Assembly: GCA_029261215.1 (NCBI GenBank) | Contig: JAJDBT010000055.1 | Location: 1 to 64,000 of the forward strand | Length of the DNA stretch: 64,000 bases | Direction: 5' to 3' | Source of the DNA: Nitrospirota bacterium | Lineage (GTDB): Bacteria > Nitrospirota > Nitrospiria > SBBL01 > JAADHI01 | Shown here: in pieces, positions 28,079 to 32,491 of the stretch | Layout: the number at the start of each line of letters is the position of its first letter | Numbering within the stretch: the stretch's first letter is position 1 | Made by a program: the position numbers and the translations under genes | Notes under the pieces: generated by a model | Database searches by the model: none | Seen by the model: the letters and a program-made list of their open reading frames with translations, nothing else | Told to the model about the DNA's origin: nothing

Positions 28079-29017
28079 ATGTTAAAGCGAAATAAAGTCA
28101 CGATTATTGGCGCAGGACATGTGGGTGCGACAGCGGCACAACGACTTTCTGAAAAAGAAATCTCGGATGTTGTGCTTATTGATATCGCCTCGGATATGCC
28201 CAAAGGCAAAGCGCTTGACCTTTCTGAAGCCGCCCCGATTTATGGGTATGACAGTCATTTAACGGGCAGCGCCTCTTACGAAGACACTGCAAATTCAGAT
28301 ATTATCGTGATTACGTCGGGCATTCCCAGAAAACCGGGCATGAGCCGCGACGACCTGCTGCGTGTCAACGCAAAAATTGTAAAAGAAGTCACCGCAAAAG
28401 CCGCAGAGAAGTCCCCTGAGGCCATCTTGATCGTGGTCTCCAATCCATTGGATGCCATGACCTATGTTGCCCATAAAGTCAGTGGTTTCAATAAGGAACG
28501 CGTCATCGGGATGGCCGGGGTATTGGATGCCGCACGCTTTAGCGCCTTCCTTTCAATGGAGCTGAATGTCTCGGTCGAAAACATCCAGACACTTGTTTTA
28601 GGAGGACATGGCGACAGCATGGTGCCACTCCCGCGCTACACGACAATATCGGGTATTCCGGTTACGGAGCTGCTCCCGAAAGATCGTTTGGATGCGATCT
28701 TAAAACGCACCCGCGACGGTGGGGCTGAAATCGTTAAACTCCTAAAAACAGGTTCCGCTTACTATGCGCCTTCCGCAGCCATTATTGAGATGATCGAATC
28801 CATTCTAAAAGACAAGAAAAAAATCCTCCCCTGCTCCGCGCTTTGCACGGGAGAGTACAATGTTAAAGACCTTTTTGTAGGTGTTCCTGTTAAATTAGGC
28901 AATCGTGGCATTGACCAGATTATTCAAATTCAACTCACCACAGAAGAAGAAGCGCGCCTAAAATCTTCCGCCATGACCGTTCAATCACTCTGCAAAATTG
29001 TTGACGAAGTGCTCTAG
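28079..29017 (+). CDS. mdh: Malate dehydrogenase (LDH-like type)
   Basis: This NAD-dependent oxidoreductase interconverts malate and oxaloacetate (312 aa). The dinucleotide fold GAGHVG (residues 11-16) ends at Asp35, indicating NAD preference. Substrate-binding Arg84 and Arg90 ([13 protein letters not shown]) fit malate; Arg153 and the catalytic His177 ([11 protein letters not shown]) are in place. It belongs to the tetrameric LDH-like malate dehydrogenase group. A promoter of its own lies upstream. The sigma-54 activator gene follows 58 bases later on the same strand. Confidence 0.95.
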
Positions 29018-29075: not shown

Positions 29076-30383
29076 TTGACCAGGGTTGCCATTATTGGTG
29101 CAGGCAAAGGAGGCACCGCCCTCATCGAAATCTTGCATAAAGATCCGCTTGTGGAAATTGTAGGCATTGCCGACCCCTATCCTAAAGCCCCCGGTCTTGA
29201 TTTGGCCCGCCGTCACAAAATCCGCACGGTGAGCGATTATCAGGATCTATTGCAAGGCGATGTTGATTTAATTATCGACGTGACCGGAAACACCTCGGTT
29301 CGGGATGCCTTGGAAAAAGATATCACTGGGATTGAAGTCGTCGGCGGACTTGCCGCAAAGTTTATGTGGCAGTTGATCGAAGAGCGCATCAAAAGCAAGG
29401 TAATGCGGGAAACCATCCGGGCACGTTATTCTTTCGAAAACATGATCGGAAAGAATGAAAAAATGCAGGAGATTTACGACCTCATCCCTAAAATAGCAAA
29501 AACAAAAGCGACTGTGCTTATTGAAGGAGAAAGTGGCACCGGCAAGGAACTGGTCGCACACTCAATTCACCAGTACAGCACACGGGAAGACAAACCCTTT
29601 ATCCGGGTCAATTGCGCAGCCCTGGCCGAAAGCCTGCTGGAAAGCGAATTATTTGGTCATGTGCGTGGGGCTTTTACAGGGGCCGTCACACACAAACTTG
29701 GACGCTTTGAACTCGCAGATGGTGGAACCATTTTTTTAGATGAAATTGGTGAGATCAGCTTGTCTACCCAGGCAAAACTCTTGCGGGCCGTTCAAGATGG
29801 AGAAATTGAAAAAGTTGGCGACTCACGGAGGGTTAAAGTAGACGTGCGCCTGATTGCCGCGACAAATAAAAACCTTAAAAAAGCCGTCGAAGAAGGTGAA
29901 TTTCGTCATGACCTTTACTACCGACTGAAAGTCGTTCCCATCTCTCTCCCTCCGCTCCGTGAACGAAAAGATGATATTCCACTCCTGGTCAGCCATTTCA
30001 TCAGTCGTTTTAATCAGGAAATGGGGAGAAAGGTGAGCATCGTCTCACCCGAAGTGATGGAGATTTTGGAAGCCTATGATTATCCGGGAAATATCCGAGA
30101 ACTGGAGAACATCATCGAACACGTCATGGTTTTTTGTACCGGGGATACGCTCGAAGCGGAACATCTGCAAAAAGACATTCAACCCAAGCGTGAAACCGTC
30201 ATCAACAAAGTCGCAGAAAATGAAGATCCACTGCACGCCATGGAAGAGGAGTTGATTTTAAAAATACTAAACCAAGAAGAATGGAACTATAAAAAAACAG
30301 CAGAGAAACTCAAAATGAGCCGAACCACCCTATGGAGAAAGATCAAAATCTACGGGTTTCAAAAACCAACAAACGTTTCATAG
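29076..30383 (+). CDS. Sigma-54-dependent activator with N-terminal Rossmann (NAD(P)-binding-like) sensor
   Basis: This is a 435-aa bacterial enhancer-binding protein. Residues 1-100 form a dinucleotide-binding-like domain (VAIIGAGKGGTALIEIL, then DLIIDVTGN) in place of the usual receiver or GAF domain. A linker helix leads to the AAA+ domain: Walker A GESGTGKE (151-158), GAFTGA loop (198-203) for sigma-54 contact, Walker B GGTIFLDEIG, and the arginine-finger region LYYRLKVVPISLPPLRER. A Fis-type HTH ends the protein (NYKKTAEKLKMSRTTLWRKIK). The start is TTG at 29076 with GAAGGA upstream. It probably senses a nucleotide or redox ratio and drives the sigma-54 promoter 100 bases downstream. Confidence 0.9.
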   Translation: MTRVAIIGAGKGGTALIEILHKDPLVEIVGIADPYPKAPGLDLARRHKIRTVSDYQDLLQGDVDLIIDVTGNTSVRDALEKDITGIEVVGGLAAKFMWQLIEERIKSKVMRETIRARYSFENMIGKNEKMQEIYDLIPKIAKTKATVLIEGESGTGKELVAHSIHQYSTREDKPFIRVNCAALAESLLESELFGHVRGAFTGAVTHKLGRFELADGGTIFLDEIGEISLSTQAKLLRAVQDGEIEKVGDSRRVKVDVRLIAATNKNLKKAVEEGEFRHDLYYRLKVVPISLPPLRERKDDIPLLVSHFISRFNQEMGRKVSIVSPEVMEILEAYDYPGNIRELENIIEHVMVFCTGDTLEAEHLQKDIQPKRETVINKVAENEDPLHAMEEELILKILNQEEWNYKKTAEKLKMSRTTLWRKIKIYGFQKPTNVS

Positions 30384-30481
30384 TGCAACATTAATTTGAA
30401 TTGCGTTTCATTTTAAAACAATGTATCGTAGATAAAGAGCAGAACCGATAGGTTTAATAGGGAATGAGAGACTTTTATTGA

Positions 30482-30497
30482 TGGCATAGACTTTGCT
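30482..30497 (+). promoter_or_regulatory. Sigma-54 (-24/-12) promoter
   Basis: TGGCATAGACTTTGCT has GG and GC separated by exactly 10 bases, the strict sigma-54 spacing, with TTGCT at -12. It lies about 45 bases before the ATG at 30542. A GCAA-N12-TTGC dyad about 80-100 bases upstream (30384-30403 region) is a possible activator site. Confidence 0.75.
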
Positions 30498-30541: not shown

Positions 30542-30733
30542 ATGACTTGTCCAAGATGTAGTGGTTTTATGGTTCCACAGGTCTTTGAGGATTTAAGAAG
30601 CGACACAGGAGAGCTCTCCTTTAAAGGATTTCGATGCATGGCATGCGGGGAAATTCTGGATGCACAAATCGCGTCAAACAGGGAGCTTCGCCCGCATCAT
30701 CAGGCAAGGAATCGAAAGCTAATGTCCTATTAA
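30542..30733 (+). CDS. Small zinc-ribbon protein (63 aa)
   Basis: This is a small protein with two Cys-x2-Cys pairs (CPRC at residues 3-6 and CMAC at 32-35), typical of a zinc ribbon, and a basic C-terminus (RELRPHHQARNRK). It is the first gene after the sigma-54 promoter, with AGGAGG before the ATG. Similar ribbons occur as small regulatory or YgiT-like proteins; no specific role is assigned. The NuoF-like gene starts 38 bases after its stop. Confidence 0.72.
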   Translation: MTCPRCSGFMVPQVFEDLRSDTGELSFKGFRCMACGEILDAQIASNRELRPHHQARNRKLMSY

Positions 30734-30771: not shown

Positions 30772-32076
30772 TTGAAAAAACAAAGAATCTTAACTGAACG
30801 CGACATTCCTTTGGATGACCTTCAATCTCTGACGCCTCTAAGTTACGAAGCCTATGTATCAAGAGGAGGTTATGTCGGTCTTAAAAAGGCAATAGAAACG
30901 CTCGGACCTTCCGGGATCATGGGTGCCATAAAGGCCTCCGGTCTTCGTGGACGGGGCGGGGCGGGCTTTCCAACCTGGAAGAAGTGGGACATGGTCGTCC
31001 AACAAAAGGAAGGAAAACGCTACCTTTGCTGTAATGCCGCAGAAGATGAACCGGGAACCTTTAAAGATCGTTACTTGCTCCGTTTTAATCCGCATCAGCT
31101 GATTGAAGGGGTCTTAATTTCTGCGTATGCGATTGGTGCGGATGAGGCCTATATTTTTATCAATGGTCATTATAAAGAAGAAGTCAAATTTATGGAGACC
31201 GCACTCCAAGCGGCAAAAGCACAGGGATATTGGGGAGAAGCTTCCGAAAAATCGCTCTCCGGCGTCACTGTGAAAATAACCAAAAGCCCCGGCAGTTATG
31301 TCGCGGGAGAAGAAACGGCCTTGCTCGAAGTCATTGAAGGCAGAGTCGCAGCACCACGGCAAAAACCGCCCTATTATCCGACAATGCACGGACTGTATGG
31401 AAAGCCAACCGTTGTGAATAATGCAGAAACGCTCTCAAACCTCCCTTTTATCCTTCGAGAAGGTGTGGATGCATTCCGTGCGATTGGAACTGACGCTTCC
31501 CCCGGAACAGTTATTTTCACCTTAACCGGGGATGTCAATCGCCCTGGACTTTATGAACGACCGCTTGGAACCTCACTCGAAAAACTCATTACCGATTCCG
31601 GCGGTGGAATTAAGGATGGGCTGCCTTTAAAAGCCCTTTTCCCTGGAGGGCCCTCCGTTCCCATTATTCCAGCGAGCGGAGCAAAGCTCTTTCTCGATTA
31701 CGATGCACTTAAAACTGCGGGAACGGGCTTGGGAACAGGGGCTGTGATCGTGATGTCCGAAGGCGCCTGTATGGTTCAAACCGCAATTCGTTACGCCCGT
31801 TTTTTTGCGGGTGAAAGCTGTGGACAATGCCCGCCCTGCAAGTTGGGGACGGTTCATATTTCTGAAATCCTTGAGAAGATTGAGTCAGGACTTGGATCTG
31901 AAGAAGATATCAAACAGGTCGAGCAGGCCTGTGAGATGGTAAAAGGAAGGGGACAGTGTTTCCTTTTGACCGGTGCCGCCATTGCGGTTGAAAGTATATT
32001 ACAACATTTTCGGCACGAATTTGAAGGTCACGTGGAGCAGGGTCAATGCCCCCAAATACCTCAACCCGTCGCCTAG
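30772..32076 (+). CDS. NuoF-like NADH-binding iron-sulfur flavoprotein (lone subunit)
   Basis: This 434-aa protein is homologous to the complex I 51-kDa subunit. It has the FMN/NADH site GRGGAGFPTWKKW (residues 60-72), NAAEDEPGTFKDR, the SLBB-like middle, and the C-terminal [4Fe-4S] motif Cys350-x2-Cys353-x2-Cys356 with Cys396 (ESCGQCPPCKLG, GRGQCF). The TTG at 30772 with AAGGAAG five to six bases upstream is the start; the frame runs upstream through the zinc-ribbon gene but lacks family similarity. No NuoE or NuoG gene is adjacent, so it probably serves as a diaphorase subunit for a partner encoded elsewhere, or as an NADH:acceptor module. It lies in a sigma-54 operon. Confidence 0.88.
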   Translation: MKKQRILTERDIPLDDLQSLTPLSYEAYVSRGGYVGLKKAIETLGPSGIMGAIKASGLRGRGGAGFPTWKKWDMVVQQKEGKRYLCCNAAEDEPGTFKDRYLLRFNPHQLIEGVLISAYAIGADEAYIFINGHYKEEVKFMETALQAAKAQGYWGEASEKSLSGVTVKITKSPGSYVAGEETALLEVIEGRVAAPRQKPPYYPTMHGLYGKPTVVNNAETLSNLPFILREGVDAFRAIGTDASPGTVIFTLTGDVNRPGLYERPLGTSLEKLITDSGGGIKDGLPLKALFPGGPSVPIIPASGAKLFLDYDALKTAGTGLGTGAVIVMSEGACMVQTAIRYARFFAGESCGQCPPCKLGTVHISEILEKIESGLGSEEDIKQVEQACEMVKGRGQCFLLTGAAIAVESILQHFRHEFEGHVEQGQCPQIPQPVA

Positions 32077-32170: not shown

Positions 32171-32491
32171 ATGGTTATTATTACAGAACGCGCAAGCAGT
32201 AAAGTGAGAGAAGTGATGGCTGCCGAAAATAAAGAGGGTTACGGTCTTCGGGTTTACGTCGAAGGCGGCGGTTGCTCCGGTTTTCAATACGGCATGGCCT
32301 TTGAAAAAACAAACAACGACGAAGACGATGTTGTTGAAATGCACGGGTTGAAGCTCTTTGTCGATCCATTTAGCGCCCCGATGTTGACCGGGACAGAAGT
32401 GGACTACCTGGATGACCTTCAGAATGCGGGATTTTCAATCAAAAACCCAAACGCAAAAACCACCTGCGGGTGCGGACAATCCTTTAGTTAA
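32171..32491 (+). CDS. A-type iron-sulfur carrier (IscA/ErpA family)
   Basis: This is a 106-aa HesB/IscA-type protein that delivers Fe-S clusters to apoproteins. The three cluster Cys are present: Cys35 (GGGCSGFQYG), Cys99 and Cys101 (TTCGCGQSFS). MVIITERASSKVREVM is the family N-terminus, and the ATG at 32171 has GGAGG five bases upstream. The frame is open upstream into the NuoF-like gene's end but that part is not conserved. It could mature the Fe-S NuoF-like protein, which lies just upstream. Confidence 0.93.
   Translation: MVIITERASSKVREVMAAENKEGYGLRVYVEGGGCSGFQYGMAFEKTNNDEDDVVEMHGLKLFVDPFSAPMLTGTEVDYLDDLQNAGFSIKNPNAKTTCGCGQSFS

Follow-up and report, generated by a model that had tools for sequence, protein, structure and literature searches.

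Sigma-54 activators (bEBPs) of the NtrC, NifA and NorR type are built from an AAA+ domain carrying the GESGTGKE and GAFTGA motifs, a lid and a Fis-type helix-turn-helix (HTH), and work with upstream sites and a -24/-12 promoter; their inputs are REC, GAF, PAS, V4R, PTS or CARF domains. Few transcription sensors read NADH/NAD+ directly, and the standard one is Rex, which consists of an N-terminal winged helix and a Rossmann domain. RtcR is a sigma-54 activator that also has a Rossmann-like N-terminus, but there it is a CARF domain (a different family from the one considered here), and the target of RtcR is RNA repair (PMC9650030). In the current study, we analysed a 64-kb stretch of Nitrospirota DNA (the window), which encodes an activator that resembles the NtrC/NifA/NorR type in its AAA+ domain, lid, HTH, upstream sites and promoter but whose input is a dinucleotide-type Rossmann domain. 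Our overall reading, to which we assign a probability of about 0.58, is that this protein is a one-component NAD(H) redox regulator that acts through dyads on the sigma-54 promoter of an operon for a zinc-ribbon protein and a NuoF-like flavoprotein.

The activator gene (29076..30383, 435 aa; this and all features of the window given below are on the plus strand) has a TTG start with AAGGA just 5' of it. Position 30497, where the original prediction had the feature end, is the end of the promoter. Residues 1 to about 90 (29076..29345) make up the Rossmann sensor domain, as judged by Pfam, AF2 and Foldseek, and are joined to the AAA+ domain by a helical linker (29346..29441; helix at residues 91-113 in the AF2 model). 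Pfam places the sigma-54 interaction AAA+ domain and its lid at residues 123-374 (29442..30197; Sigma54_activat at residues 123-289, and AAA_lid_14) and the Fis-type HTH at residues 389-425 (30240..30350; HTH_8, 38.2 bits against a cut-off of 22). Both GESGTGKE and GAFTGA are present in the sequence; the latter is found in all Rossmann-type orthologs, and the former (Walker A) throughout them but for L074, which has GETGTGKE. Given the AAA+ domain, the HTH, the nearby promoter and upstream sites, and rpoN, of which the genome has one copy, the protein is, as far as sequence can tell, a bEBP by every testable feature.

The promoter, TGGCATAGACTTTGCT (30482..30497), is an exact match to the -24/-12 consensus. 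It starts 98 nt past the activator stop and 60 nt before the zinc-ribbon ATG, with exactly 10 nt between its GG (30483-30484) and its GC (30495-30496), which agrees with the original prediction of a GG-N10-GC site some 100 bases beyond the stop. No other exact TGGCAYN5TTGCW occurs within the window. Matches with one mismatch are at chance level there (5 found against 5.2 expected), but a chance origin of the site itself was rejected on grounds of conservation: TGGCAY-N5-TTGC stands immediately 5' of the zinc-ribbon gene in 15 of the 16 Rossmann-type orthologous loci that have this gene on the same contig, and in the remaining locus (L062) 9 of the 11 consensus bases match. Because it is kept at the same place in 15 of 16 loci, and because the exact pattern occurs 16 times genome-wide against 4 for a reversed control pattern, we regard the promoter as lying above chance. 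The expectation that the activator acts on this adjacent promoter, ahead of the zinc-ribbon and NuoF-like genes, is also supported. In one locus (L072), the zinc-ribbon gene lies 1.35 kb from the activator, and the promoter has remained with the zinc-ribbon gene. An IHF-like TTGAT near -34, frequent among the orthologs, is absent from the window and hence is not claimed.

Upstream of this promoter lie two putative activator sites, unnoticed in the original prediction, each a GTTTC-N5-GAAAC dyad with one mismatch. The first, GTTTCATAGTGCAAC (30375..30389), overlaps the activator stop codon at -107 from the promoter; the second, GTTTCATTTTAAAAC (30405..30419), is at -77. When the 260 bp ahead of each of 16 promoters (the window and 15 orthologs) were searched, such dyads with at most one mismatch numbered 28 in 4.16 kb compared with 10 in the remaining 237 kb, an enrichment of about 160-fold, and a control search of the same regions with spacers of N4 or N6 returned a single dyad. 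Among the orthologs, conservation is highest for the copy near -70 to -92. Within 400 bp of the other sigma-54-type sites of the genome, no dyad with at most one mismatch was found at 14 of 15; the other site, L082, has a GTTCC variant dyad. At this site (L231 around 3914, minus strand / L082), three GTTCC/GTTTC-type dyads lie at -78 to -120, upstream of an exact sigma-54 promoter that drives an 87-aa protein, and they are probably the target of another activator. For the window, we predict the dyads to be the binding site of the Rossmann activator. One could suppose instead that the promoter and dyads are real but are served by a different activator, with the Rossmann protein acting elsewhere, and a candidate exists in one genome (G173), where the dyads and the zinc-ribbon promoter directly follow the end of a PAS-type sigma-54 activator gene (L229:3-1361). 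However, the Rossmann activator is adjacent in all other orthologs, and activator, dyads and promoter are conserved jointly, which makes this supposition very improbable. In G173 itself the Rossmann activator sits on another contig and runs off its end, an arrangement that reflects either tandem activators or an assembly artefact.

Upstream of the activator gene is mdh (malate dehydrogenase, 28079..29017; TIGR01763, 467.8 bits, cut-off 351.85), which adjoins the activator in nearly all orthologous loci and, with a gap of 58 nt, is probably cotranscribed with it. Behind the promoter comes a small zinc-ribbon protein (30542..30733, 63 aa), identified as an ORF with homologues and a CxxC...CxxC motif; homologues were found in 41 of 41 relatives searched, often as several paralogs per genome, and the motif is kept. 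The NuoF-like NADH:FMN/[4Fe-4S] flavoprotein (30772..32076, 434 aa, TTG start) has Complex1_51K, SLBB and NADH_4Fe-4S domains, in support of the original prediction that an NADH-oxidising flavoprotein would be among the products. Its PDB matches are HydB, NuoF and HoxF, with which it shares the FMN/NADH site motifs and the SCGxCxxC cluster motif; unlike them it stands alone, and its TIGR01959 score of 472 bits is under the equivalog cut-off of 558.65. We found no NuoE/NuoG complex I cluster around it and no NuoE beside it; the genome has three NuoF homologues, and a full-length NuoE adjoins only the C18 copy. On these sequence features, a stand-alone diaphorase of the NuoF type is the most fitting description. 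At the flavin/NADH site the protein reads CNAAEDEPGT where the complex I NuoF of the same genome reads CNADESEPGT, and replacement of CNADE by CNA[A/G]E is common to the stand-alone lineage (the window's protein and its orthologs). An IscA-like Fe-S carrier gene (32171..32491; Fe-S_biosyn in Pfam) likely belongs to the same operon. The order zinc ribbon, NuoF-like, IscA-like, with mdh upstream, recurs in most orthologs. Homologues with the same domain pair and gene order, whose existence the original prediction left to be checked, were thus found, and the full order from mdh through activator, zinc ribbon and NuoF to IscA is kept across several families of the class. Comparison of these loci shows that the predicted regulator, the putative dyads, the promoter and the operon belong together, and the activator very probably turns on the adjacent NADH-oxidising flavoprotein.

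What the activator senses is a matter of its N-terminus, for which a dinucleotide-binding fold rather than a receiver, GAF or PAS domain had been proposed, a view that Pfam profiles, a fold model and a PDB match all uphold. In the Pfam search, no receiver, GAF or PAS match was obtained there; GFO_IDH_MocA matched the N-terminal 114 aa (30.2 bits, cut-off 24) and NAD_binding_3 the whole protein (35 bits, cut-off 24). An AF2 model of residues 1-114, made without ligand from an alignment of 43 sequences from related loci, gave a confident b-a-b-a-b-a-b half-fold followed by the helix at 91-113 (pLDDT 88.4, pTM 0.81); a full-length model made without an alignment (pLDDT 41) was discarded. By Foldseek, acylating acetaldehyde dehydrogenase gave the best fold match in the PDB through its NAD-binding domain (1nvm; E 3.8e-6, TM 0.69), and further matches were to Gfo/Idh enzymes solved with NAD. 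A profile search concurs with NAD-binding families and also reaches the NADH sensor Rex, with which the similarity is weak (E 3.3e-4). Membership of the Rex family was rejected, as the activator has no winged helix and its sensor is fused to a sigma-54 AAA+ domain instead; membership of RtcR/CARF was likewise rejected, as the N-terminus has no RtcR/CARF Pfam match and the NCBIfam RtcR match spans residues 114-420 only.

The sensor has in common with acetaldehyde dehydrogenase, the Gfo/Idh/MocA enzymes and the aspartate/homoserine dehydrogenases its fold, its GxGxxG motif and its acidic end of beta-2. Those enzymes, however, continue into a catalytic or substrate domain, whereas in the activator a linker helix and the AAA+ output follow residue 90. 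Comparison of the predicted structure with NAD(P)-binding domains identified a Rossmann fold with its GxGxxG kept: among the 43 aligned sensor domains, G8 is present in 43 and G10 and G13 in 42 each, and the residue at position 33, where beta-2 ends, is D in 35 and E in 8. At least one distant member (L095) has lost GxGxxG. The combination of GxGxxG and an acidic beta-2 end is the classical NAD(H) pattern, and the acidic residue disfavours NADP(H); because of that residue we prefer NAD(H) over NADP(H), and the domain is likely to sense NAD(H). It is possible that CoA, a different ligand or a protein partner provides the signal. A distinctly less probable account than ours, albeit one to be taken seriously, keeps the same regulator and target and has as ligand CoA or acyl-CoA, NADP(H), a nucleotide, or a metabolite (oxaloacetate or malate held with NAD). 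CoA or acyl-CoA is a possible ligand because Pfam CoA_binding matches 13 of the 43 members (best E 2.1e-6); moreover, the nearest structural kin use NAD plus an acyl or sugar substrate, and mdh adjoins the activator. On the other hand, the NAD(H) pattern (GxGxxG with the acidic residue) is kept in all but one of the 43, the acidic residue speaks against NADP, and the top structural matches are NAD-binding domains, all of which favour NAD(H) as the ligand.

The original prediction also called the combination unusual. This holds for the pairing with sigma-54 at this locus, which is rare, but not for the domain itself, a portable input module that numerous kinases and diguanylate cyclases carry as well. 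When the four copies of the window's genome served as query, 124 of the 198 genomes searched in the phylum had the domain (E <= 1e-3), and a wider alignment detected it in 59 of 198 genomes of a second phylum, the one reached through a MAG labelled Deltaproteobacteria (E <= 1e-12); for the scan of contigs a closer set of 9 domains was used, as the 43-domain alignment is too divergent. In sampled Nitrospira-type genomes its partner is a HisKA_3 kinase, and elsewhere it occurs with HisKA kinases, GAF-GGDEF and GGDEF-EAL proteins, and GAF-PAS-HisKA-REC-REC-GGDEF proteins of about 1140 aa. Each of the four copies in the window's genome heads a signalling output: besides the activator, these are two GAF-GGDEF proteins and a HisKA_3 kinase that is followed by a NarL-type regulator. 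Fusion to sigma-54 activators is found in the window's order and one near family (L074/L112), and perhaps also in the second phylum (L248, cut by the contig end).

This distribution bears on the idea that the Rossmann domain serves for protein interaction or dimerisation and carries no cofactor signal of its own, in which case its partner would be malate dehydrogenase, NuoF or the zinc ribbon. There is a precedent in RtcR, whose CARF domain is governed by binding RtcAB, its own targets (PMC9650030); the neighbouring genes are conserved, and so, outside the cofactor site, is the C-terminal AKFMWQLIEE of the domain. Yet the cofactor-site residues are kept, and kinases and cyclases whose neighbouring genes are unrelated begin with this domain too. 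Because of the latter we favour a diffusible signal, and consider a purely protein-binding role unlikely. Members of the sensor domain give weak matches to several enzyme families in Pfam, with no model specific to the sensor family among them, and as a family the domain seems not yet to have been named. Within the part of the literature that we covered, we found no description of it on kinases, cyclases or sigma-54 activators, which is weak evidence, and Rossmann domains go unmentioned in a review of c-di-GMP sensor inputs; RtcR has a Rossmann-like bEBP input (CARF), but the literature searched yielded no dinucleotide-type one that kinases and cyclases share. We would put at even odds the broader proposition that these domains form a so far undescribed family of NAD(H)-sensing inputs, present in Nitrospirota and at least one other phylum as a general read-out of NADH/NAD+, which replaced PAS at the mdh-zinc ribbon-NuoF locus; its outputs would be sigma-54 activators, HisKA and HisKA_3 kinases, GGDEF/EAL proteins and hybrid kinases.

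In the proposed mechanism, the HTH of the activator would bind the dyads at 30375-30419 and its AAA+ domain remodel sigma-54 polymerase at 30482-30497, two steps for which the conserved sites argue strongly, and the zinc-ribbon, NuoF-like and probably IscA genes would be transcribed. More tentatively, the Rossmann domain, as the NAD-binding domain of a dehydrogenase without its catalytic half, may bind NAD(H), and the bound form may alter the linker helix and hence assembly of the AAA+ ring. As to the sign, our guess, which leans only modestly to this side, is that high NADH/NAD+ lifts inhibition, so that a flavoprotein for the handling of NADH electrons is induced. Among named records, the closest are Nitrospiria MAGs and Candidatus Manganitrophaceae (order Troglogloeales), and the host is a relative of the manganese-oxidising Nitrospirota. 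The Manganitrophaceae have been described as autotrophs that oxidise Mn(II), fix CO2 through the reverse TCA cycle and use reverse electron transport (PMC9040806); NADH supply should be costly for such a metabolism. Should NAD(H) binding prove true, a single fold would convey the redox state to c-di-GMP signalling, phosphorelays and sigma-54 regulation in those Nitrospirota that oxidise nitrite or manganese.

Two further families of the class (L218-L220; L221-L224 with L230) have the same gene order, but their activator starts with a PAS domain that contains Cys. These PAS-type activators have an orthologous AAA+-HTH and the same mdh and zinc ribbon-NuoF neighbours. In a tree of the AAA+-HTH region, a single clade (98/95) unites the Rossmann and PAS types and sets them apart from the 14 other activators of the window's genome that the tree covered; within it the Rossmann type is not one clean group, L074 being separate from the other 17. 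From the same gene order and the joint clade, we infer that the sensor changed while locus and output stayed, and the outlying PAS rows suggest that PAS is the older state. Since related loci use a PAS sensor, the operon does not strictly depend on a Rossmann domain that senses NAD(H). The locus thus offers a natural sensor-swap pair (PAS versus Rossmann on the same AAA+-HTH and operon) for the study of bEBP inputs.

Several variants of these arrangements were observed. Upstream of the zinc-ribbon gene of L221-L224 and L230 there is no sigma-54 site; a TTGACA/TATAAT-like sigma-70 promoter lies there, with GAAAC...GTTTC just past the -10. The Walker A motif in these loci is GE[LP]GTGKE, and GAFTGA becomes GAFPGA in L223 and L230; the activator looks as if it had changed to sigma-70 control or repression. 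In L075 (G211), a PAS-sigma-54 activator is 62% identical in the AAA+ domain, the zinc-ribbon gene stands behind a near-consensus sigma-54 site, and a MoaA-like radical-SAM gene takes the place of mdh upstream. Among the sensor domains on other outputs, a Rossmann-HisKA_3 kinase and a NarL-type response regulator (L005:6271-7982) lie directly behind two glycogen-metabolism-type glycosyl hydrolase genes. Two tandem Rossmann sensor domains precede PAS domains in L259, L261 and L262, a LuxR-type HTH precedes the Rossmann domain in L251, and L106 encodes a stand-alone copy of 135 aa.
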